38,489 nt of DNA from Lachnospiraceae bacterium (GTDB taxonomy: Bacteria > Bacillota > Clostridia > Lachnospirales > Lachnospiraceae). Where the stretch lies: assembly GCA_024694055.1 (NCBI GenBank), contig JAILKC010000003.1, positions 1-38,489 on the forward strand, in the 5' to 3' direction. Below are positions 23,251-34,154 of the stretch, piece by piece (within the stretch, counting starts at the first letter, position 1; each line of letters begins with the position of its first letter). The position numbers were made by a program, and so were the translations under genes. Under the pieces are notes generated by a model. That model had not been told where the DNA came from. It made no database searches and worked only from the letters and a program-made list of their open reading frames with translations.

Positions 23251-23859
23251 ATGTACGCATATTTTATCGGCAAAGTGGCACAGGTGGGCGCAGACAGTAT
23301 CGTGCTTGAGACCAATGGCATAGGATACAATATCATCATGTCGGCAAGAGATTTAAGCGAGATCATCCCCGGTGATGAACTTAGGATCTATACCTATACG
23401 AGTGTTCGTGAAGATGCCATATGGCTCTATGGCTTTTTGGACAGAGAGACTCTTTCGTTTTTTAAACTTCTGCTTACGGTGAACGGAGTGGGGCCGAAGG
23501 GAGCGCTGGGAATTCTTTCGGGGGCATCTGTTGATGATATCCGGGTGGCGATCATAGCTCAGGATGCCAAGACGCTCAGCAAGCTGCCGGGGATAGGAGC
23601 CAAGACTGCAGCGAGGATCATTCTTGACCTTAAGGACAAAGTAAGTGCAGGAGATATACTGGGCGGACTGGGTGAGGACGTAAATACTTCATCCGGTCAC
23701 ACATCTTCTGCGAAAACAGGTGTAAAAGCAGAGGCAACAGAGGTACTGACCACTCTCGGATACAGCGCGTCCGAAGCCATGCGTGCATTGAACCGCCTTG
23801 AATATTCTGAAGATATATCGACTGAAGATCTTGTCACAATGGCACTCAGAGAACTGTAG
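23251..23859 (+). CDS. ruvA: Holliday junction branch-migration subunit RuvA
   Basis: RuvA binds four-way DNA junctions and loads the RuvB motor. The 202-residue protein has the OB-fold N-terminus (MYAYFIGKVAQV to VREDAIWLYGF), two helix-hairpin-helix motifs (LLTVNGVGPKGALGIL, LSKLPGIGAKTAARII) and the C-terminal RuvB-binding domain (ATEVLTTLGYSASEA to ALREL). Length is normal. Its partner ruvB is not adjacent but 3 kb downstream, behind a dehydrogenase and leuCD. It is followed 11 bp later by the dehydrogenase gene. Confidence 0.97.
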   Translation: MYAYFIGKVAQVGADSIVLETNGIGYNIIMSARDLSEIIPGDELRIYTYTSVREDAIWLYGFLDRETLSFFKLLLTVNGVGPKGALGILSGASVDDIRVAIIAQDAKTLSKLPGIGAKTAARIILDLKDKVSAGDILGGLGEDVNTSSGHTSSAKTGVKAEATEVLTTLGYSASEAMRALNRLEYSEDISTEDLVTMALREL

Positions 23860-23870
23860 GAGGTGAGCTT

Positions 23871-24860
23871 ATGAGATTATTATTCTATGCGGCAAAGGTG
23901 TATGACAGAAAATCATTTGAACCGGTGAATGAAGAATTCCCGGAGATAGAGATAGACTATATCGAACATGAACTTGAACCCCTTACGGCTCCGCTTGCTA
24001 AGGGATACGACGGAATATGTGCATTTGTGAGTGCGGATGTGGGAAGTGAGACTCTGCAGATACTGCATGATAACGGAGTTAAGTATGTACTCATGAGATG
24101 TGCCGGATACAACAATGTGGATGTCGATAAGGCCAAGGAACTGGGCATAACGGTCAAACGTGTTCCGGGCTATTCTCCCGAAGCGGTAGCAGAACTTGCG
24201 ATGGGACTTGCTCTTGCGGTGAACAGACGTCTGTACAAGGCCTATAATAAAGTGAGAGAGAACGATTATACACTTAAGGGACTGCGTGGAGTGAACTTCT
24301 ATCAGAAGACTGCGGGGATTGTCGGTACCGGCAAGATCGGAGCGGCCATGGCCAGAATATGCAAGGGTTTTGGTATGAATATCATAGCCTATGATGTATA
24401 TGAAAATCCGGACCTAAAGGACTTCGTGGAATATGTATCTCTTGATGAACTTTTTTCAAGAAGTGATCTGATTTCTTTACATTGCCCGCTTATGGACAAC
24501 ACCTATCATATGATCAATATTGAAAATATCAAGAAGATGAAAGACGGTGTGATACTTGTCAATACATCAAGAGGTGCATTGGTAGATACGGATGAACTGA
24601 TCGAAGGAATACGACTTAATAAATTCCTCGGCGTGGGTCTGGATGTATATGAAGAGGAAACAGGCAATGTATATGAGGACAGATCCGATGAGATCATGCA
24701 GCATTCCGTTACGGCCAGACTTTTGTCCTTCCCCAATGTGATGATAACCTCACACCAGGGCTTTTATACGTTGGAGGCTCTTGAAGCGATTGCACATACT
24801 ACACTTACTAATATGATAGATGCTAAAAACGGTGTTCATAACGGCAATGATGTTGCGTAG
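23871..24860 (+). CDS. D-lactate dehydrogenase-type 2-hydroxyacid dehydrogenase
   Basis: The 329-residue NAD-dependent D-2-hydroxyacid dehydrogenase has Rossmann motif GTGKIG (152-157), catalytic Arg234 in NTSRGALVD, a Glu in GLDVYEEE and His295 in TSHQGFYT. MRCAGYNNVD is typical of the LdhA-like D-lactate branch, so fermentative reduction of pyruvate to D-lactate is the likely role. Related 2-hydroxyacid dehydrogenases acting on 2-oxoisocaproate or other 2-oxoacids cannot be excluded, and lying next to leuCD makes that worth noting. AGGAGG precedes the ATG. It follows ruvA by 11 bp and is followed by a hairpin with a T-rich tail. Confidence 0.88.
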   Translation: MRLLFYAAKVYDRKSFEPVNEEFPEIEIDYIEHELEPLTAPLAKGYDGICAFVSADVGSETLQILHDNGVKYVLMRCAGYNNVDVDKAKELGITVKRVPGYSPEAVAELAMGLALAVNRRLYKAYNKVRENDYTLKGLRGVNFYQKTAGIVGTGKIGAAMARICKGFGMNIIAYDVYENPDLKDFVEYVSLDELFSRSDLISLHCPLMDNTYHMINIENIKKMKDGVILVNTSRGALVDTDELIEGIRLNKFLGVGLDVYEEETGNVYEDRSDEIMQHSVTARLLSFPNVMITSHQGFYTLEALEAIAHTTLTNMIDAKNGVHNGNDVA

Positions 24861-24912
24861 ACAAGTGTATGACTGACAGGAACCGGAATGCTTCCGAATA
24901 TGCTTGTTTTGA

Positions 24913-24941
24913 TTGATATACCTCGAAAAATATGGTATTTT
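24913..24941 (+). promoter_or_regulatory. Probable promoter for leuCD within a hairpin
   Basis: TTGATA (24913-24918) and an extended -10, TGG-TATTTT (-10 at 24936-24941), are 17 bp apart. The -10 lies in the loop of the hairpin 24921-24960, so this promoter is embedded in the terminator of the preceding gene. Confidence 0.5.
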
Positions 24942-24965
24942 ATTACTGTATTTTTCGAGGTTTGT
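24921..24965 (+). terminator. Terminator-like hairpin between the dehydrogenase and leuC
   Basis: CCTCGAAAAATA (24921-24932) pairs perfectly with TATTTTTCGAGG (24949-24960) around a 16-nt loop, followed by TTTGTT. It should end the ruvA-dehydrogenase transcript or act as an attenuator ahead of leuC. Confidence 0.7.
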
Positions 24966-25005
24966 TATATGGTGTTTTAAAGAATTGGAGAGGAATGAAA
25001 AGATT

Positions 25006-26271
25006 ATGGGAATGACTATGACACAGAAGATCCTGGCTGCGCATGCGGGACTTAAAAGCGTGGAGGCAGGACAGTTAATAGAGGCTAAACTTGATCTGGT
25101 ACTTGGCAATGATATTACTTCGCCGGTAGCTATTCACGAGATGGACAAGATGAAAGTGGACGGAGTGTTTGATAAGGATAAGATAGCACTCGTGCCTGAT
25201 CATTTTGTTCCCAATAAGGATATAAAGTCTGCAGAACATTGCAAATGTGTCAGAGAATTTGCGAAGAAAAATGATATAACGAATTATTTTGAAGTTGGGC
25301 AGATGGGCATAGAGCATGCGCTTTTACCTGAAAAAGGTCTTACGGTCGCCGGTGACGTGATCATAGGCGCGGATTCACATACGTGTACATATGGTGCTGT
25401 TGGTGCATTTTCTACGGGCGTGGGAAGTACTGACATGGCTGCCGGTATGGCTACGGGCATGGCGTGGTTTAAGGTGCCTTCAGCGATTAAATTTGTACTT
25501 AAGAACAAGCCTGCGAAATGGGTGAGCGGTAAGGACATTATTCTGCATATCATAGGTAAGATAGGTGTGGATGGAGCATTATATAAATCGATGGAATTTA
25601 CCGGAGACGGAATACAGTATCTGACCATGGATGACAGATTCACCATAGCCAATATGGCGATAGAAGCCGGTGGCAAGAACGGGATATTCCCCGTGGATGA
25701 TCTGTGCCTTAAGTATATAAGCGAGCACAGTAACAGAAAGCCTGTAGTATATGAGGCTGATGCGGATGCGGTATATGATGAAGTGATTGAGATCGATCTT
25801 GCCACGCTCAGACCTACAGTGGCTTATCCTCATCTTCCGGAGAATACCAAGACTATAGATGATTCTGTTAAGGATGATATCAAGATTGATCAGGTGGTTA
25901 TCGGATCATGTACCAACGGACGTATGGATGATCTAAGGATTGCCGCATCCATACTTAAGGGCAAGAAGGTTGCGGCTGGAATGAGACTAATAGTGATACC
26001 CGGTACACAGCAGATATATCTTGATGCCATGGAAGAAGGCCTTATAAGGACCTTTGTTGAAGCGGGCGGAGTTGTATCGACACCCACGTGCGGACCCTGT
26101 CTTGGCGGATATATGGGTATTTTGGCTGAGAATGAACGCTGCGTATCCACGACTAACCGTAACTTTGTAGGACGTATGGGGCATATTTCTTCGGAGATAT
26201 ATCTTGCCAGCCCGGCTGTAGCTGCGGCCAGTGCCATTGCAGGCAGGATCGCAGATCCCGAGACTGTATGA
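25006..26271 (+). CDS. leuC: 3-isopropylmalate dehydratase large subunit
   Basis: LeuC with LeuD isomerises 2-isopropylmalate to 3-isopropylmalate in leucine synthesis, using a [4Fe-4S] cluster. The 421-residue protein has the three cluster cysteines C302 (GSCTNGR), C362 and C365 (CGPCLGG), and aconitase-family stretches such as [23 protein letters not shown] 25006 ([15 protein letters not shown]) is the start seen in related LeuC; a start at 24913 would run through the hairpin. GGAGAGG lies 12 nt upstream, slightly far, so MTMTQKI at 25012 is an alternative. leuD follows after 42 bp; leuA and leuB are not in the window. Confidence 0.96.
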
Positions 26272-26313
26272 TGATTATGATATATGTATAGATAAGCGCA
26301 GAAAGGAACAACG

Positions 26314-26802
26314 ATGGAAAACGCACACGGAAAAGTGATCAAATACGGAGACAATGTAGATACCGATGTTATTATACCGGCAAGATATCTTAACAGTTCG
26401 GATCCGAGTGAACTGGCAACTCATTGCATGGAGGATCTGGATAAGGATTTCTTAAGCAAGATGAAGCCGGGTGATATCATGGTGGCAGAGAAGAATTTTG
26501 GTTGTGGTTCATCAAGAGAACATGCCCCGATCGCTATCAAGGCCTGTGGTATCAGCTGCGTAATAGCAGAGACTTTTGCAAGGATATTCTACAGAAACGC
26601 CATTAATATAGGCCTTCCCATCATAGAATGTCCCAAAGCCGTTGCGGGTATAGATAACGGCGATGAAGTATCGATAGATTTTGACAGCGGGATCATCAAA
26701 AATATTACGAAAGGTACGTCGTTCAAAGGGCAGCCTTTCCCTGAATTCATGCAGAAGATAATTGACGCGGAAGGACTTGTCAATTATATTAATAGTAAGT
26801 GA
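26314..26802 (+). CDS. leuD: 3-isopropylmalate dehydratase small subunit
   Basis: The 162-residue swivelling-domain partner of LeuC has [15 protein letters not shown] (about 12-26), the active-site loop [12 protein letters not shown] and [19 protein letters not shown], all diagnostic of LeuD. Length fits the clostridial/archaeal-type small subunit. AGAAAGGAAC lies before the ATG. ruvB begins 10 bp after its stop, without an obvious ribosome site of its own. Confidence 0.96.
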
Positions 26803-26812
26803 TTTTTTTCCT

Positions 26813-27802
26813 ATGGAACGTAAGATTCTCAACACAAAGATCACTTCGGATGATATCAAGAATGATAATGTTCTCAGACCTGAATTTCTTAAGGATTATA
26901 TAGGCCAGGAGAAGGTTAAGTCATCCATGAAGGTGTATATTGATGCGGCTAAAGCCAGAGGTGAGAGCCTCGATCACGTCTTGCTGTACGGTCCTCCGGG
27001 ACTTGGCAAGACTACTTTGGCTTGTATCCTTGCCAATGAGATGGGCGTGAACATCAAGATCACTTCCGGACCGGCAATAGAGAAACCGGGTGAGCTTGCT
27101 GCAATATTGAGCAAGTTAAGAGACGGAGATCTGCTCTTTATTGATGAGATACATCGCCTTAACAGACAGGTTGAAGAAGTATTGTATCCCGCCATGGAAG
27201 ATTATGCCATTGATGTTGTGACTGGCGTTGGACCGGATGCAAGAAGCTACAGGCTTAAACTTGCGCGTTTTACGCTTGTTGGTGCAACTACGAGAGCGGG
27301 AATGCTGACGGCTCCTTTAAGGGACAGATTCGGCATGATACAGAAGCTTGAATTCTATGATCCGGATGAGCTTAAGACCATTATACTCGGTTCGGCATAC
27401 AGACTCGGTGTCGATATAGATGAGGACGGCGCATATGAGATGGCGCGCAGGAGTCGTGGTACACCGAGAATAGCCAACAGACTTCTCAAGAGAGTCAGAG
27501 ATTATGCTCAGGTCAAATATGACGGGCTTATCACAAAGGATGTAGCTGATGAGGTCCTTGGAATATTGGACATTGATCCGATGGGCCTTGATAAGACCGA
27601 TAAGAATATACTTAACACTATTATAGACAAGTTCGGAGGCGGACCTGTGGGTCTTGACACTCTGGCAGCGACCATAGGTGAAGATCCGGGTACCATAGAG
27701 GATGTATATGAGCCGTTTTTACTGATGAACGGTTTCATCAACAGGACTCCCAAGGGAAGGACCGTTACCGACGAGGCGTACAGACATCTGGGACTTAAGT
27801 AA
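26813..27802 (+). CDS. ruvB: Holliday junction branch-migration ATPase RuvB
   Basis: This hexameric AAA+ motor drives branch migration with RuvA. From ATG 26813 it is 329 residues: Walker A GPPGLGKT (60-67), Walker B FIDEIHRL (DEIH 111-114), [26 protein letters not shown] with the RuvB beta-hairpin and arginine-finger region, and a C-terminal winged helix ([19 protein letters not shown]). The ATG is preceded only by an AT-rich stretch, with no recognisable ribosome site, so expression probably depends on coupling to leuD just upstream; an in-frame upstream start would lie inside leuD. It is separated from ruvA by three metabolic genes. Confidence 0.96.
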
Positions 27803-27817
27803 TGCGAGGTATATCAA

Positions 27818-28864
27818 GTGACAGATCACATTACAGATCACGTAATCATAGTTGACGATGATGTAACCAATCTGAATATGGCGGGTCATATTCTGTCCAA
27901 GAATAAGATGCATGTCACGGCACTTAAGTCGGGCAAAGCTTTGCTTGCGCATATGAAGGAGCATAAGGCTGATCTTATCCTTCTTGATATCATTATGCCT
28001 GATATGGACGGATATGAGACCTTAAGACGGCTCAGAGAACAGGAAAAAGACGGAGAAGAGACTCCGATCATATTCCTGACGGCCAATGAAGATTATGATG
28101 CCGAGGCCAAGGGACTTGAACTCGGTGCCATTGATTTTATCAAGAAGCCATTTATCCCTGAAGTTTTGGCGCTCAGAGTCAGACATATGTGTGATCTTAT
28201 CAAGCTTCAGAAGAATCTTGAGAATGAAGTTGAGATCAAGACAGAAGAAAATGACAGACTTTTCAGACATGTCATTCGTACCCTGGCAGATGCGATAGAT
28301 GCCAAGGATAATTATACCAAGGGACATTCGGGAAGAGTGGCAGAGTATTCAAGGTCAATTGCAAGGAGATATGGATATACCGAGAGACAGCAGAATGAAA
28401 TATTCATGATGGGTATTCTTCATGATGTTGGTAAGATCGGTATTCCCGATGCTGTGATCAATAAGCCTGAGAAACTCACTGCGGAGGAGTATTGCCTTAT
28501 TAAGAGCCATCCGGTGGTCGGGGCCAATATTTTAAGTAATATTTCTGAGATGCCCTCTCTTATGACGGGTGCCAGGTGGCATCATGAGCGTGTGGACGGC
28601 GGAGGATATCCTGACGGACTTAAGAATAAGGATATTCCGGAGGCTGCGCGTATCATAGCCGTTGCGGATGCGTACGATGCCATGACCAGCAGACGAAGCT
28701 ACAGAGACATACTTCCGCAGGACAAAGTCAGAGCGGAGCTTGAAAATGGCAGGGGTAGCCAGTTTGATCCGGTATTTGCGGATATAATGCTTCGTATGAT
28801 GGATGAAGACAAAGGCTATGAGATGAGGGAGAAGATAGATGAAGGAGCGGAAGGTAAGCAGTGA
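27818..28864 (+). CDS. HD-GYP response regulator (probable cyclic-di-GMP phosphodiesterase)
   Basis: The 348-residue protein joins an N-terminal receiver domain (1-125; acidic triad VDDD, phosphoacceptor Asp57 in LLDIIMPDMDG, FLTAN and Lys110 in KKPF) to an HD-GYP domain (150-335; GHSGRV, His202-Asp203 in ILHDVGKIGIP, HHERVDGGGYPDG with GYP 263-265). All metal ligands I can place look intact, so hydrolysis of cyclic-di-GMP is likely. The GTG start has GAGG (27806-27809) 8 nt upstream. The 3' end overlaps the next gene, a hybrid histidine kinase, by 26 bp, so that kinase or the following one is the natural candidate to phosphorylate it. Confidence 0.93.
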   Translation: MTDHITDHVIIVDDDVTNLNMAGHILSKNKMHVTALKSGKALLAHMKEHKADLILLDIIMPDMDGYETLRRLREQEKDGEETPIIFLTANEDYDAEAKGLELGAIDFIKKPFIPEVLALRVRHMCDLIKLQKNLENEVEIKTEENDRLFRHVIRTLADAIDAKDNYTKGHSGRVAEYSRSIARRYGYTERQQNEIFMMGILHDVGKIGIPDAVINKPEKLTAEEYCLIKSHPVVGANILSNISEMPSLMTGARWHHERVDGGGYPDGLKNKDIPEAARIIAVADAYDAMTSRRSYRDILPQDKVRAELENGRGSQFDPVFADIMLRMMDEDKGYEMREKIDEGAEGKQ

Positions 28865-31448
28865 AGTAAGCAGAATATCACATATTGCTCTGGTCATTAC
28901 GATCAATGTTTTTTCTGCTGTCCTTGTATTGCTTAATTCCTTAATGAATTGGGACCTTTGGACCACTCCTCTTTTTATATGTGTGGCTGTTGTTACGGTT
29001 GCCATGTATTTTACCAGCAGAGCATCCAATCAGCATACGATGTATTTCTATGCTTCGATGATCATGCTGGAACTGTTCTATTATTGTGTCAAAGCGCCAT
29101 CTGTCTATGACGCTACTCCCGTTATCATAATCGCACTTATCATGCTTGCGCTTTCCGGCAACAGAAATGTTATCCGTGCATGTATTCTGATCGGATATCT
29201 CGGATTTTTCTTTAAGGTATATATTTCTCATAAAAACGGTCATGATATTCTCGTAACCAAGGGAGATGTCATGACTTTAATTATGCATCTTTTTTTGGTA
29301 ACACTTGCCGGATTTGCTGTTATGAGAGTCTACTATGTGTGGAAGAAATCTGAAGATATGTACAAAAAACGTATCACTCAGATTGAAGAAGAGAACCGCA
29401 AAGCCAATGACTTTATGGCCAATGTATCGCATGAGATCCGTACTCCCGTTAATGCCGTTATAGGTCTTACCAATGTAATTATGGATCGAATAAGCGATAA
29501 AGATGCAAAAGAAGATATCAGGTCCGTTAATGATGCAGGTCATCGTGTTGCGGATCAGATAAGCGATATACTTGATTACACCGAGATCGATATGAATAAG
29601 CTTGTGGTCAATGATGAAACTTACATGCTTTCTTCGCTGATCGATGATATCGCAACCAAGCTTAACAGTATAGCCAGACCTGAAGTGGAAGTTATCTTCG
29701 ATATATCAGCGGACATACCTTCCGTACTTATAGGTGATATAAGCAAGATCAGGAGAGTGTTGTGGCATATCATCAGTAACGGTATCAAATTCACCAAATC
29801 AGGTGGTGTATATATACGTGTGTATTCTCTAAGGCGTCAGTACGGTGTGAATCTGTGCGTTGAAGTGACTGATACCGGAGTGGGAATGGATGATGATGAG
29901 ATCGGAAGAGTGCTTGATAAGTTCTATCAGGCCAATTCGGGCAGAAACAGGGCGGCCGGAGGTTTGGGCCTTGGAATGTCCATTGCACATGGTTTCGTGA
30001 AGGCCATGGGAGGTTTCCTTACAATTGAGAGCAAGAAGGGTGAAGGCACCAAAGTATGCGTGAGCATACCTCAACATATAGCTGAGGAATCATCATGCAT
30101 GGCTATTAATGATACCAACAGCCTTTGCCTTGCATCCTTCCTTCATTTTGATAAGTATCAGAATCCTCAGGTCAGAGCGTTCTACAATAATATGATCAAG
30201 AACCTTGTGCAGGGGCTTGGCATAATGGTATACAGGGTTGACAAACTCGGAGATCTAAAGAAACTGCAGGATATATACAATCTCACACACCTGTTTATGG
30301 GTACTGAAGAATATAACATTGATCCTGCGTACATAGAAGCCTTGGCTGCACAGATAGAAGTGATAGTGATCGCGGATACGAGATTTGAACCTTCACCGGG
30401 AACCAATGTCAGAGTTGTACGTAAGCCGTTTTATGGCTTCCCGCTTGTTAATCTCGTCAATTCCGGTACCTATAAGCGGAATGAACTTATTACGTCTGCA
30501 GGACTGTATTGTCCGGGGGTCAAAGCGCTTGTGGTTGATGACGAACGCATGAATCTTCTTGTGGCAGAGGGTATATTTAAGAAATACGGAATGGTAGTCA
30601 CTACTGTCGGTACGGGTGTCGATGCAGTCAATATATGCAAAAAGCAGAGCTTTGACCTGATCTTTATGGATCATATGATGCCTGAGATGGATGGTATTGA
30701 GGCCATGAAACAGATCAGGACCAATGCAGGCAAAGAGGGAAAGGAACTGACCATAATCGCGCTTACCGCCAATGCTGTCAGCAGCGCAAGGGAGATGTTC
30801 CTTAATGAGGGCTTTGATGAGTTCGTGCCCAAGCCCATAGAGAATGCCGATCTTGAGAGAGTGCTGCGGCGCGTTCTTCCCAAATCAGCAATTATCGAAC
30901 TTGAAGGTGAAAAGAGTCAGGAGAAAAAAGATGATATCTTCTATGACACCATAACCGATACGACTTCTTTTGCCAAAAGTGAGAATGAGATCGGAGAGAG
31001 CTTTGCAAAACTCACGAATGTGGGAATAGATACTTTGTCGGCGATGAAATACTGTCAGAATGACAGCAGTTTCTATGTGATGCTGCTTAAGAATTTCGCT
31101 CTTGATTTTGACAATAAGGCACCTGAACTTAAGACTTTGTTTGAAGAGAAGAACTGGCATGATTATTCTATCAGAGTCCATGCTCTTAAAAGCGCGTCCA
31201 AGATGATAGGTCATGATGAAATGTCAAGCCTGTCAAGCAGACTTGAGGAAGCGGCCAAGGCTGACGACGGGCATGCGGTTGAAGCTGAACACGGCAAACT
31301 TATGAGTATGTATACCGAAGTAGTGAGCCTGATCAGGCAGACGTATAAGATGCCGAATGAAGATATTCCCGAGATTGCCAGTGCCGGTATTGCGGATGTA
31401 TCTGACAATGAAGAAGAATATGAAGTACTCGAGTTTAAGCCTGAATAA
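28839..31448 (+). CDS. Membrane hybrid histidine kinase with pseudo-receiver, receiver and HPt domains
   Basis: The 869-residue sensor has an N-terminal membrane domain (several helices, about 14-165) without a large extracellular loop and a short coiled coil. HisKA follows, with His198 in NVSHEIRTPVNAVIGL, then HATPase (N314, DTGVGM at 345-350, GLGLGM at 375-380). A receiver-like region (about 430-540) lacks the phosphorylatable Asp (THLFMGTEEY) yet keeps a VVRKPF end. A true receiver (about 562-680) has Asp611 in FMDHMMPEMDG, and a C-terminal HPt carries His781 in RVHALKSASKMIG. The parts needed for a phosphorelay are all present. The ATG lies inside the end of the HD-GYP gene, with GAGGGAG upstream. 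The ligand is unknown. Confidence 0.92.
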   Translation: MKERKVSSEVSRISHIALVITINVFSAVLVLLNSLMNWDLWTTPLFICVAVVTVAMYFTSRASNQHTMYFYASMIMLELFYYCVKAPSVYDATPVIIIALIMLALSGNRNVIRACILIGYLGFFFKVYISHKNGHDILVTKGDVMTLIMHLFLVTLAGFAVMRVYYVWKKSEDMYKKRITQIEEENRKANDFMANVSHEIRTPVNAVIGLTNVIMDRISDKDAKEDIRSVNDAGHRVADQISDILDYTEIDMNKLVVNDETYMLSSLIDDIATKLNSIARPEVEVIFDISADIPSVLIGDISKIRRVLWHIISNGIKFTKSGGVYIRVYSLRRQYGVNLCVEVTDTGVGMDDDEIGRVLDKFYQANSGRNRAAGGLGLGMSIAHGFVKAMGGFLTIESKKGEGTKVCVSIPQHIAEESSCMAINDTNSLCLASFLHFDKYQNPQVRAFYNNMIKNLVQGLGIMVYRVDKLGDLKKLQDIYNLTHLFMGTEEYNIDPAYIEALAAQIEVIVIADTRFEPSPGTNVRVVRKPFYGFPLVNLVNSGTYKRNELITSAGLYCPGVKALVVDDERMNLLVAEGIFKKYGMVVTTVGTGVDAVNICKKQSFDLIFMDHMMPEMDGIEAMKQIRTNAGKEGKELTIIALTANAVSSAREMFLNEGFDEFVPKPIENADLERVLRRVLPKSAIIELEGEKSQEKKDDIFYDTITDTTSFAKSENEIGESFAKLTNVGIDTLSAMKYCQNDSSFYVMLLKNFALDFDNKAPELKTLFEEKNWHDYSIRVHALKSASKMIGHDEMSSLSSRLEEAAKADDGHAVEAEHGKLMSMYTEVVSLIRQTYKMPNEDIPEIASAGIADVSDNEEEYEVLEFKPE

Positions 31449-31481: not shown

Positions 31482-34154
31482 ATGAATACCAAAAGAATGG
31501 TTGAGTGGTTTACAAAGACATATCCGGATATAGCTGAGAGGAAATTTGCCATCTCGGGTATAACCACTGCTGTTACACTGCTCGTGATCTTAATATGGGA
31601 TATATTTATCGGTGAACCGCTTGTCAGGGTCATTACTTTGGCGCTTTCTTTGGTTGCGGCATGGATGGCTTTGGTATTTTTTCTTTATATTCACAGAGCT
31701 TCTTTCGGAGCTACGCTTATCTCGATTGTAATTGTATGTGTGGTCGTTCCGCTCATGTTCTTTACGGGTGATGGTATATACGGATGCACTCCGTTGTGGA
31801 TAGCCTTTGCCTTTATGTATATCGGCATCAATCTTAAAGGCAGGCGCAGACCCGCGCTTATCATACTGCTGTTAGCCGTCACTGTCGGTTGCTATATGTT
31901 GGCATGCGCAAGGCCGGATCTTTTGATACATCATGTTGATATGGCCAAGGCTTATCTGGATTCCGGCGCATCTTTGGTTGCAGTGGGTGTTTTGTCACAT
32001 ATTCTGATAGGCTTTCTTGTAGAGATATATGATGGCGAGAGGAATACTGCCGAGACTCGGAAAAAGGAGATTGAATCTCTCAATCTCGCACAGAGCAGAT
32101 TCTTCTCCAGCATGAGCCATGAGATCAGGACTCCGATCAATACCATAGTTGGCCTTAATGAGATGATCCTTAGAGAAGATATATCACCGGAAGTGGCGGA
32201 CGATGCCAAGAATATCGAATCGGCCAGTAAGATGCTGTTACAGCTCATCAATGATATCCTTGATATGTCCAAGATAGAAGCCGGTAAACTTGATCTGACT
32301 CCGATCGCATATGATGTTGGAGATATGCTATCCGATATAGTCGGAATGCTGTGGGTAAGAGCCAAGGAAAAGGGATTGCAATTCCATGTCGATCTTGATC
32401 CGCATCTGCCGTCCAAGCTCTATGGCGATGAGATGAGGATCAAACAGGTTCTCATCAATGTTCTTACCAATGCGATCAAATATACCAAAGAGGGTTCTGT
32501 TAACTTTACGATCCAGTGTGAGAGAACTGAAGACAATAAAGCTAAGGTCGTATATTCAATAAGTGATACGGGTATAGGTATCAAGAAAGAGAACATCCCT
32601 TATCTTTTCTCGGCGTTCAAGAGAGTTGATGAAGAGAAGAACAGACATATCGAAGGAACCGGACTGGGTCTGGCGATCGTTAAGGAATATGTTGACCTTA
32701 TGGGCGGAAACGTCACTGTTAACAGTGTTTATACCCAGGGTACCACGTTTATCGTTGAGATACCGCAAGAGGTAGCTGATTCCAGAGAGATCGGAGAGCT
32801 CAATATTGAAGAACGCCATGAGATGAATGAGCGTACTCATTACAAGAGAAGATTTGAAGCTCCTGAAGCAAAGATCCTTGTAGTGGATGACAATTCTTCA
32901 AATATCATGGTTGTTACCAAATTGCTTCGTGATACGAAAGTTAATGTGGACAGTGCCAAGAGTGGTGAAGAAGCCTTAAAAAAAGCTTTTTCAAAGCATT
33001 ATCATGTTATATTCATGGATCATCTCATGCCTGGAATGGATGGTATAGAGTGTATGCACAAGATCCGTGAACAAGTCGGAGGGTTGTGTAATGATTCCAA
33101 GATCATAGCGCTCACCGCCAATGCGGGAAGTGAGAATAAAGCACTTTATGCAAGAGAAGGATTTGATGGATATCTTGTTAAGCCTGTCAGCGGTGATGAA
33201 CTTGAAAAAGAACTCATCCGTATGCTTCCCAAAGAGATCGTTCAGGCCATAGATTTTGAAGCCAGAGTGGAACTCGAAGGACAGACAGATTCGGCTATCA
33301 GAGTTAAGAGAGTATCTTTGCTTATCACGACCGACAGTGTGTGTGATCTTCCGGCTGATATACTTAAGCAGAATGACATCAGGGTTATTCCTTACTATGT
33401 AAGTACGGATAAAGGATTGTTCTTGGATGGTAAAGAGATCAACTGCACCGAGATGATCGATTATATGACGGATAATCCGGGTAAAGCAAAAGCAATGCCG
33501 CCTACTTCTGCGGACTATGAAGCATTCTTTGCAAAACAGCTTCTTACAGCCAATAATGTCATCCATATATCCATGGCCGGCAGCGAATCTGAAGGATATG
33601 CGATTGCATCTGAAGCAGCTCAGACGTTTGACAATGTAAGTGTAATAAACAGCGGACACTTATCAAGCGGACTCGGACTTATGGTGCTTGCTGCTCATAA
33701 GATGGTAGTAGAGGGATATACACCCGACAGGATACTTAAGGAATTACCATTATACAGAAATAAGATATCTACCGGATTTATGGTGAGATACGCGGACAGC
33801 ATGGCGAGAGCAGGCAAGATAAATAAAGCTTTTGCAGTGGCCTCCGACTTTGCGTTTTTGCATCCTATCATGATATTGAAAGACAGCAGACTGACCTTGG
33901 GCAGAATATTCTTCGGCACATTTGCCTATGCACAACGCAGATATATCAAAGAATCATTTGCTGAACCGGACAGGATAGACACCTCCAGACTGTTTATCAC
34001 ACATTCCGGATTGGATGCTGAACAACTGCGCGAGATCAAGAGGCAGGTCGAAATGTATATCAAGTTTGATGAAATCATATTCCAAAAGGCTTCGCCTGCC
34101 ATAACGGCTAATTGCGGACCGGGTTCCTTCGGGCTGTTGTACACGACTATATAA
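31482..34154 (+). CDS. Membrane hybrid histidine kinase fused to a DegV (fatty-acid-binding) domain
   Basis: The 890-residue protein has an N-terminal multi-helix membrane region (about 22-182). HisKA (His213 in MSHEIRTPINTIVGL) and HATPase (NVLTNAIKYT, SDTGIGI 361-367, GTGLGLAIV 392-400) follow. A receiver (463-585) has DD469-470, Asp513 in FMDHLMPGMD and Lys567. A full DegV/FakB-type domain (about 611-890) completes it, with TTDSVCDLP, VIPYYVS, PPTSADYEAFF, SVINSGHLSSGLGLMVLAA, HPIMILKDSRL and GRIFFGTFAYAQR. DegV proteins bind a fatty acid and hand it to the FakA kinase, so a lipid-responsive kinase is the obvious idea (inference). No HPt is present; the upstream kinase supplies one. GGGAGG lies upstream of the ATG. 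The frame is unbroken, so the fusion is real in this sequence. Confidence 0.93.
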   Translation: MNTKRMVEWFTKTYPDIAERKFAISGITTAVTLLVILIWDIFIGEPLVRVITLALSLVAAWMALVFFLYIHRASFGATLISIVIVCVVVPLMFFTGDGIYGCTPLWIAFAFMYIGINLKGRRRPALIILLLAVTVGCYMLACARPDLLIHHVDMAKAYLDSGASLVAVGVLSHILIGFLVEIYDGERNTAETRKKEIESLNLAQSRFFSSMSHEIRTPINTIVGLNEMILREDISPEVADDAKNIESASKMLLQLINDILDMSKIEAGKLDLTPIAYDVGDMLSDIVGMLWVRAKEKGLQFHVDLDPHLPSKLYGDEMRIKQVLINVLTNAIKYTKEGSVNFTIQCERTEDNKAKVVYSISDTGIGIKKENIPYLFSAFKRVDEEKNRHIEGTGLGLAIVKEYVDLMGGNVTVNSVYTQGTTFIVEIPQEVADSREIGELNIEERHEMNERTHYKRRFEAPEAKILVVDDNSSNIMVVTKLLRDTKVNVDSAKSGEEALKKAFSKHYHVIFMDHLMPGMDGIECMHKIREQVGGLCNDSKIIALTANAGSENKALYAREGFDGYLVKPVSGDELEKELIRMLPKEIVQAIDFEARVELEGQTDSAIRVKRVSLLITTDSVCDLPADILKQNDIRVIPYYVSTDKGLFLDGKEINCTEMIDYMTDNPGKAKAMPPTSADYEAFFAKQLLTANNVIHISMAGSESEGYAIASEAAQTFDNVSVINSGHLSSGLGLMVLAAHKMVVEGYTPDRILKELPLYRNKISTGFMVRYADSMARAGKINKAFAVASDFAFLHPIMILKDSRLTLGRIFFGTFAYAQRRYIKESFAEPDRIDTSRLFITHSGLDAEQLREIKRQVEMYIKFDEIIFQKASPAITANCGPGSFGLLYTTI

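Follow-up and report, generated by a model that had tools for sequence, protein, structure and literature searches.

The DegV proteins, a large family, are known to carry fatty acids for FakA, the fatty acid kinase. According to PMC8892158, Staphylococcus aureus FakB1 binds the carboxylate of the fatty acid through Thr62, Ser95, Ser171 and His270, and it requires Arg173 for catalysis and fatty acid kinase activity and Arg205 for FakA binding; R173 and R205 are there termed completely conserved in FakBs. A connection between fatty acid kinase and signal transduction is reported for the two-component system SaeRS of S. aureus, which requires that enzyme for its activity (PMC5539427). The gene analysed here carries a DegV domain within a sensor kinase. 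It lies at positions 31482–34154 of the window, by which we mean the whole stretch of 38,489 nucleotides analysed (Lachnospiraceae bacterium, assembly GCA_024694055.1, contig JAILKC010000003.1), and it encodes a hybrid histidine kinase whose receiver domain is followed by DegV. To our knowledge, the SaeRS kinase has no fused DegV domain. In the genomes examined, one branch of the DegV family, to which this domain belongs, has lost the FakB residues and sits in a signalling cassette.

The open reading frame (P0001) is a single frame of 890 amino acids with an ATG start and no internal stop, and its features are as follows.

31482–34154, plus strand: hybrid histidine kinase-receiver-DegV fusion, 890 amino acids (Pfam; four-domain order also in relatives).
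31530–32036, plus strand: N-terminal membrane region of 5–6 helices, residues 17–185 (AlphaFold2 helices, hydropathy peaks).
32088–32285, plus strand: HisKA, residues 203–268 (Pfam 3.1e-18), with the His213 codon at 32118–32120.
32424–32771, plus strand: HATPase_c, residues 315–430 (Pfam 3.1e-28).
32874–33212, plus strand: receiver (Response_reg), residues 465–577 (Pfam 8.6e-23), with the Asp513 codon at 33018–33020.
33255–33308, plus strand: low-confidence linker between receiver and DegV, residues 592–609 (predicted local distance difference test, pLDDT, below 50 in the full-length AlphaFold2 model).
33321–34142, plus strand: DegV (FakB-like), residues 614–887 (Pfam 4.4e-36), with the derived residues K779, F811 and N877.

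The gene is confirmed as a genuine one-frame fusion of membrane helices, HisKA, HATPase, receiver and a complete C-terminal DegV domain, and the frame, the domains, His213 and Asp513 all stand as an earlier sequence-only reading of this DNA had given them. The DegV match covers profile positions 3–277 of 280 at 125.1 bits, against a curated Pfam cut-off of 27. His213 sits in the motif SHEIRTP (from residue 212) and Asp513 in FMDH (from residue 511). The catalytic set of kinase and receiver is present (H213, DTGIG, GTGLG, D469-D470, D513, T545 and K567), and His213, D469, D470, D513, T545 and K567 are invariant in a 49-row alignment of full-length members. The hydropathy profile has five separate hydrophobic regions and the AlphaFold2 model six membrane-type helices, in agreement with the N-terminal membrane region proposed earlier; this region of the window protein has no Pfam match, and 2 of 49 relatives have a DUF6057 match somewhere in the protein (Pfam). 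The full-length model has a mean pLDDT of 82 and a predicted template-modelling score (pTM) of 0.45; confidence is thus mostly good for the single domains but not for their mutual arrangement.

The DegV domain retains the fold of FakB. Its AlphaFold2 model (pLDDT 92.9, pTM 0.90) has the EDD two-domain fold seen in FakB crystals, and Foldseek aligned it with S. aureus FakB1 bound to palmitate (5uto) at a template-modelling (TM) score of 0.85/0.86 and a root-mean-square deviation of 2.7, and with 2dt8 at a TM of 0.86; the top five matches in the PDB, 5uto included, range from 0.80 to 0.86. For comparison of the residues, the FakB1 positions were placed on S. aureus FakB2 by motif and spacing, FakB1 itself lying outside the alignment. 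The census compared 86 fusion domains (80 named loci from relatives, five further copies of the window's own genome and the window copy) with 33 standalone DegVs, namely four of the own genome and 29 top-scoring loci from relatives (L014 was dropped), a set that favours typical DegVs. At the His270 place, 79 of the 86 fusions have Asn and 2 have His, whereas 31 of the 33 standalone proteins have His. Arg is found at the Arg205 place in 1/86 fusions against 30/33 standalones, a hydrophobic residue standing there in 76 fusions, and at the Arg173 place in 28/86 against 33/33. No fusion keeps both His270 and Arg205, which 29 of the 33 standalones do. The remaining positions are less sharply divided: Ser95 is kept in 56/86 fusions and 33/33 standalones, the Thr62 place has Thr in 17 and Ser in 56 of the 86 fusions (29 and 4 of the 33 standalones), and the Ser171 place is not diagnostic because it is Gly in 31/33 standalones too. 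In the window copy, the places of Thr62, Ser95, Ser171, Arg173, Arg205 and His270 are taken by A, S, A, K, F and N, respectively; the equivalent of Ser95 is the only one of the FakB residues checked that it retains, while Lys779, Phe811 and Asn877 stand for Arg173, Arg205 and His270.

The loss is accompanied by a signature of the fusions' own. At 31 positions, at least 80% of the fusions share one residue that fewer than 25% of the standalone DegVs have, so the domain is not decaying; Tyr821, Asp833, Asn877 and Cys878 are among these positions, and A870-S871 are also strongly conserved in the family-specific way. Judged from these residues, the fusion DegV is a FakB-like fold minus the FakB residues that handle fatty acids, and since those parts are lost, the fold has probably been repurposed as a sensor or docking piece. 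Loss of the lipid pocket had been named earlier as what would refute the fatty-acid reading; at the level of sequence, this loss applies to the head-group chemistry.

The fusion is a family rather than a single gene. Of ten DegV matches in the own genome (2.28 Mb in 186 contigs, 84% complete), four are standalone and six lie within frames of at least 900 amino acids; all six long frames are kinase-receiver-DegV, and two of them end with an Hpt motif. Relatives were retrieved with one peptide pattern derived from these six fusions, which matched 191 loci, and 80 of the 191 were kept as named loci; such a search favours fusions, and conservation at residues 716–724 is partly built in. A kinase H-box lies in frame in 70 of the 80, and the other 10 extend past the contig end. 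Among the 69 full-length fusions, DegV starts at residue 597–643 in 66 and at 520, 580 and 580 in the three exceptions, and 18 carry an extension of 216–281 amino acids after DegV. When 48 of the 69 were scanned with Pfam together with the window protein, HisKA, HATPase, REC and DegV were found in 49/49, and an Hpt domain followed DegV in the same protein in 10/49. According to their recorded taxonomy, the 80 named loci comprise 52 from Lachnospiraceae, 10 from Oscillospiraceae, 4 from Eubacteriaceae, 1 from Treponemataceae (a metagenome bin) and 13 without an assigned family, so that the hosts are Lachnospiraceae and related bacteria; isolates are among the records, including three of Butyrivibrio. 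Fused frames of at least 600 amino acids without a stop occur in 11 of 20 genomes of the genus (own included), in at least 26 of 392 of the order (about 250 bits or more) and in at least 3 of 398 of the phylum, all three of the same family, the order and phylum counts being lower bounds because at most six candidates were scored per genome. These counts rule out a single-strain oddity. No plasmid copy was found: 920 plasmid records matched at E 1e-40, none over 80% of the query, and the ten matches listed concern kinase-receiver parts. Two DegV frames of 708 and 751 amino acids (G342:C11 and G307:C14) have one in-frame TAG each.

Two genes precede the fusion in the window.

28839–31448, plus strand: partner hybrid kinase, HisKA-HATPase-REC-Hpt, 869 amino acids (Pfam; homologues upstream of the fusion elsewhere).
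27818–28864, plus strand: response regulator REC-HD-GYP of the cyclic di-GMP (c-di-GMP) phosphodiesterase type, 348 amino acids (Pfam; HDVGK and HHERVDGGGYP intact).

The REC-HD-GYP gene, which the sequence-only reading had correctly placed two genes upstream, overlaps that of the partner kinase. The partner bears the sole Hpt found in the window gene pair; it scores 23.7 bits, just below the Pfam cut-off of 24.6, and has HALK at residue 781. What the earlier reading had not included was that this intervening gene is a co-conserved partner kinase, that the genome has six copies of the fusion and that the FakB-defining residues are lost. Elsewhere, 65 of 69 loci having an upstream gene call have that gene on the same strand within 150 bp, a 4-base overlap being the commonest spacing (24/65). 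The Pfam scan of 49 of these 65 upstream genes and the window partner found HisKA and HATPase in 50/50 proteins, REC in 49/50 and Hpt in 33/50, at 28–44% identity to the window partner. Among 50 loci with a second upstream gene on the same strand within 200 bp, the encoded protein has a receiver domain in 44 cases, an HD or HD-GYP domain in 25 and a GGDEF domain in 10, which strengthens the link to c-di-GMP signalling suggested earlier. A conserved downstream partner was not found, REC being the commonest downstream family (10/51). A kinase H-box is present within 3 kb upstream of 61/63 fusion loci, against 0/34 standalone-DegV loci, for which about 1.5 kb on each side was searched, and near 1/10 DegV loci of the sister group (about 1.5 kb each side). 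Distances in the DegV half correlate with those of the partner kinase (Mantel r 0.93) and of the fusion's own kinase half (0.92; p 0.001, 58 loci). By gene order, the real unit is a recurring cassette in which a response regulator often comes first, followed by a second hybrid kinase and finally the DegV kinase.

Several of these cassettes have settings of their own. On contig C95 of the own genome (L166, 1–9569), a kinase-receiver-Hpt gene and a divergent kinase-receiver-DegV gene lie between a CheA-type gene (Hpt, P2, HATPase) and flgM, flgN and flgK, and in another genome of the genus (L163) flgM and flgN likewise follow the kinase-receiver-DegV gene; this setting likely reflects a link to flagellar or chemotaxis control. 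Contig C145 (L164, 3356–14991) has tandem cassettes in the order kinase-receiver-Hpt, kinase-receiver-DegV, REC-HD-GYP, kinase-receiver-Hpt, kinase-receiver-DegV. The cassette on contig C12 (L165, 1527–8420) has its Hpt on the DegV fusion and is flanked by a 136-amino-acid protein without a Pfam match and a 262-amino-acid protein with a C-terminal receiver. In the window itself, a 2-hydroxyacid dehydrogenase gene and leuC/leuD-type genes lie between ruvA (23251–23859) and ruvB (26762–27802), within 23251–27802.

The two kinases of a pair carry one Hpt between them. With an Hpt profile built from the family, exactly one Hpt was found in 58 of 59 pairs, on the partner only in 43, on the fusion only (after DegV) in 15 and on both in 0. 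Motif-positive members of this set had served to train the profile, and the 59 pairs exclude loci with cut genes or without an upstream kinase H-box; counting the bare Hpt motif in the same pairs gives partner only 38, fusion only 15, both 0 and neither 6. Seven of the 15 fusions with their own Hpt were placed in the tree described below, and all fall in one clade. Outside that clade, L063 follows the one-Hpt rule in another layout, a kinase-receiver protein without Hpt adjoining a DegV-Hpt protein. A few rare loci have DegV as a gene of its own: in L162 a 286-amino-acid DegV gene comes directly after a kinase-receiver-Hpt gene, and the DegV gene of L068, for 287 amino acids, overlaps a receiver-Hpt gene that begins outside the retrieved stretch. 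The split DegVs of L063, L162 and L068 all bear the fusion-type Asn, and the conserved feature is therefore a DegV within a relay cassette, fused or not. A stop near 33250–33320 in relatives had been named as the mark of a sequencing error; separate DegV forms do occur, as natural variants rather than as signs of an artefact. At L114:3464–4180, a partner kinase of 239 amino acids, with H-box and receiver and without a recognisable ATPase part, stands beside an intact DegV-Hpt fusion.

In a quick, midpoint-rooted tree of 89 chosen domain sequences with long branches (the own-genome L009 among these), the fusions and split forms make up one group with a Shimodaira-Hasegawa-like approximate likelihood ratio test (SH-aLRT) value of 99. 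An adjoining group of standalone DegVs has a value of 95, the two are joined at 98, and the other standalones lie apart. Because the split forms lie among the fusions, the fusions alone need three changes on this tree. By eye, the nine sister sequences included in this tree still have the His, the two Arg and the GGR motif, so the FakB residues were probably lost with or after entry into the cassette. The standalone DegV group closest to the fusions (L155–L161, L069–L071) has an HCGP motif and mostly TAAVN-type residues replacing TSQ, and may be a further DegV branch that binds a ligand of its own. FakA, whose presence the sequence-only reading had asked about, is found in 37 of 41 genomes, own included, and the own genome has one FakA (G000:C176) on the contig that also bears the standalone DegV L002. 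His270, Arg205 and Arg173 are all present in three of the own genome's four standalone DegVs, and L004 keeps only Arg173. With FakA and typical standalone DegVs present, the ordinary FakA-FakB work can fall to other genes.

In our best reading of these sequences, DegV has left the service of FakA and been taken up into a relay of two kinases and one Hpt, where it would act as an input or docking module; the relay would often act on c-di-GMP turnover. This reading builds on what can be read from the sequences themselves, namely the architecture, the gene order, the one-Hpt rule, the loss of FakB residues, the new signature and the single group in the tree. The window gene would be the third member of a cassette of REC-HD-GYP, hybrid kinase with Hpt and hybrid kinase with DegV. 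Both kinases would form one relay sharing the single Hpt, with phosphate passing from the receiver of either kinase to this Hpt and on to the response regulator, a presumed direction, and the output would be altered c-di-GMP breakdown or, in other cassettes, synthesis. DegV, descended from a FakB-like carrier, would now be a cytosolic regulatory module outside the FakA pathway. It is most likely an input domain, whose EDD cleft would bind a ligand and whose bound state would bias the phosphoryl flow. The ligand may still be a lipid, its head group bound in a new way around the conserved Asn877-Cys878, or another lipid or ligand may occupy the same cleft. To this whole explanation, a shared-Hpt two-kinase relay with DegV as the likely ligand-binding input domain, we give about an even chance (roughly 0.5). 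A bolder version is only tentative and, on balance, doubtful: that these proteins are a new class of intracellular receptor, in which a former carrier fold with a new site at Asn877-Cys878 lets a lipid or hydrophobic molecule control a two-kinase, one-Hpt relay setting c-di-GMP and motility, the latter through the cassette with the CheA-type gene and flgM.

Several observations weigh against the explanation that we favour. Neither protein of the pair L131 has an Hpt, and the one-Hpt rule rests on few independent events, because the cases with Hpt on the fusion look like one lineage. The Mantel correlations could be explained by shared vertical descent alone. At least 15 of the 50 second-upstream genes had no HD or GGDEF domain, and the own-genome cassette on C95, beside the CheA-type gene and flgM-flgN-flgK, is without a c-di-GMP gene among the neighbours scanned, so c-di-GMP is not the output of every cassette. 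Many members could still bind a carboxylate, because 56/86 keep Ser95 and 73/86 have Thr or Ser at the Thr62 place. The conserved residues of the cleft would be just as compatible with docking as with ligand binding.

This last point leads to the main rival, in which DegV is a ligand-free docking or dimerising piece that holds together the two kinases, or receiver and Hpt. We regard it as a serious though less probable possibility. FakA_C, which is structurally related to FakB, binds FakB (PMC9136124), the DegV in the cassettes seen is fused to a receiver or Hpt or encoded beside one, a separate gene being possible, and the change of the charged Arg205 place to a hydrophobic residue is what a new interface might look like. 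On the other hand, the family-specific conservation covers the old head-group site (N877, C878) and A870-S871, suggesting a function in the cleft, and the overall DegV fold is intact by Foldseek. DegV might instead be the output of the receiver, an effector whose binding or release is altered by phosphorylation of Asp513. The order of receiver and effector is the usual layout of response regulators, and DegV directly follows REC; yet DegV has no attached receiver in L063 (DegV-Hpt), L068 and L162 (DegV alone), and an Hpt after DegV, as in 10/49 proteins, suits a role in relay control better than one as the final output, which makes this reading unlikely. We consider it very improbable that the domain works as a FakB, binding fatty acid so as to gate the kinase or to hand an acyl chain on to FakA, which was the earlier proposal. 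The similarity to palmitate-bound FakB1 (TM 0.85), the presence of FakA and the partial retention of Ser95, Thr/Ser62 and Arg173 in the family would suit it, but the near absence of Arg205 (1/86) and His270 (2/86), their joint absence (0/86) and the loss of Arg173 in all but 28/86 do not, given the complete conservation of R173 and R205 that PMC8892158 ascribes to FakBs; the four standalone DegVs of the own genome, one on the FakA contig and three with His270, Arg205 and Arg173, speak against it as well. FakB-type fatty-acid binding with acyl hand-over by the fusion DegV is therefore not supported by the residues. Finally, a misassembly or frameshift joining a kinase gene to an unrelated degV gene, which the draft state of the genome (186 contigs, 84% complete) might suggest, has a negligible chance and is ruled out as a sequencing or assembly artefact by the five further fusions of the own genome, six copies in all, and by the same join, with a consistent DegV start, in the 69 full-length fusions of other records, isolates included.

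If the shared relay with DegV as its input were confirmed, a lipid-carrier fold would have been turned into a signalling module, and the cassette would offer a first handle on c-di-GMP or motility control in little-studied anaerobes as well as a naturally occurring relay of two proteins, either of which can bear the Hpt.

Compared with known systems, the domain shares with the FakB/DegV family (PF02645, TIGR00762) the fold, Pfam and NCBIfam scores above the cut-offs, Gly879 of the GPG loop and the retained Ser724. It differs in being fused to a kinase or placed in a relay cassette, in the replacement of His270 by Asn and of Arg205 by hydrophobic residues, in the loss of most Arg173 and in the 31 family-specific positions. 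FakA_C (PF13684) likewise has a FakB-related fold that binds a partner protein (PMC9136124), and a weak PF13684 match was found in 4 of 49 fusions; however, the fusion DegV reaches a query-normalised TM of only 0.45 to the FakA_C structure 6w6b, as against 0.85 to FakB1, and the fusion has no FakA kinase parts by Pfam. SaeRS is similar in that the Fak system is reported to be linked to a sensor kinase (PMC5539427). In the open-access literature, where coverage leaves out preprints and most subscription journals, no report of a kinase-DegV protein was found, in keeping with the earlier statement that no characterised protein has the kinase-receiver-DegV architecture; domain databases may list it. 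The DegV passages of PMC3146951 and PMC12688256 describe degV beside hemolysin III genes and a DegV gene within a deleted region, respectively, without a kinase-DegV protein, and the DegV passages of PMC3533761, PMC8406281 and PMC3091722 do not describe one. The hybrid kinases BarA, TorS and ArcB have the same HisKA-HATPase-REC order and catalytic residues, and BarA and TorS are the best NCBIfam matches of the fusion, although its BarA, TorS and ArcB matches lie far below the curated cut-offs; unlike them, the fusion has DegV after the receiver, and in most cases it is the other hybrid kinase, encoded upstream, that carries the Hpt. Collectively, the system may be described as a hybrid-kinase phosphorelay with a repurposed DegV, in which the kinase is of a known type and the DegV addition was not met in the open-access literature searched.

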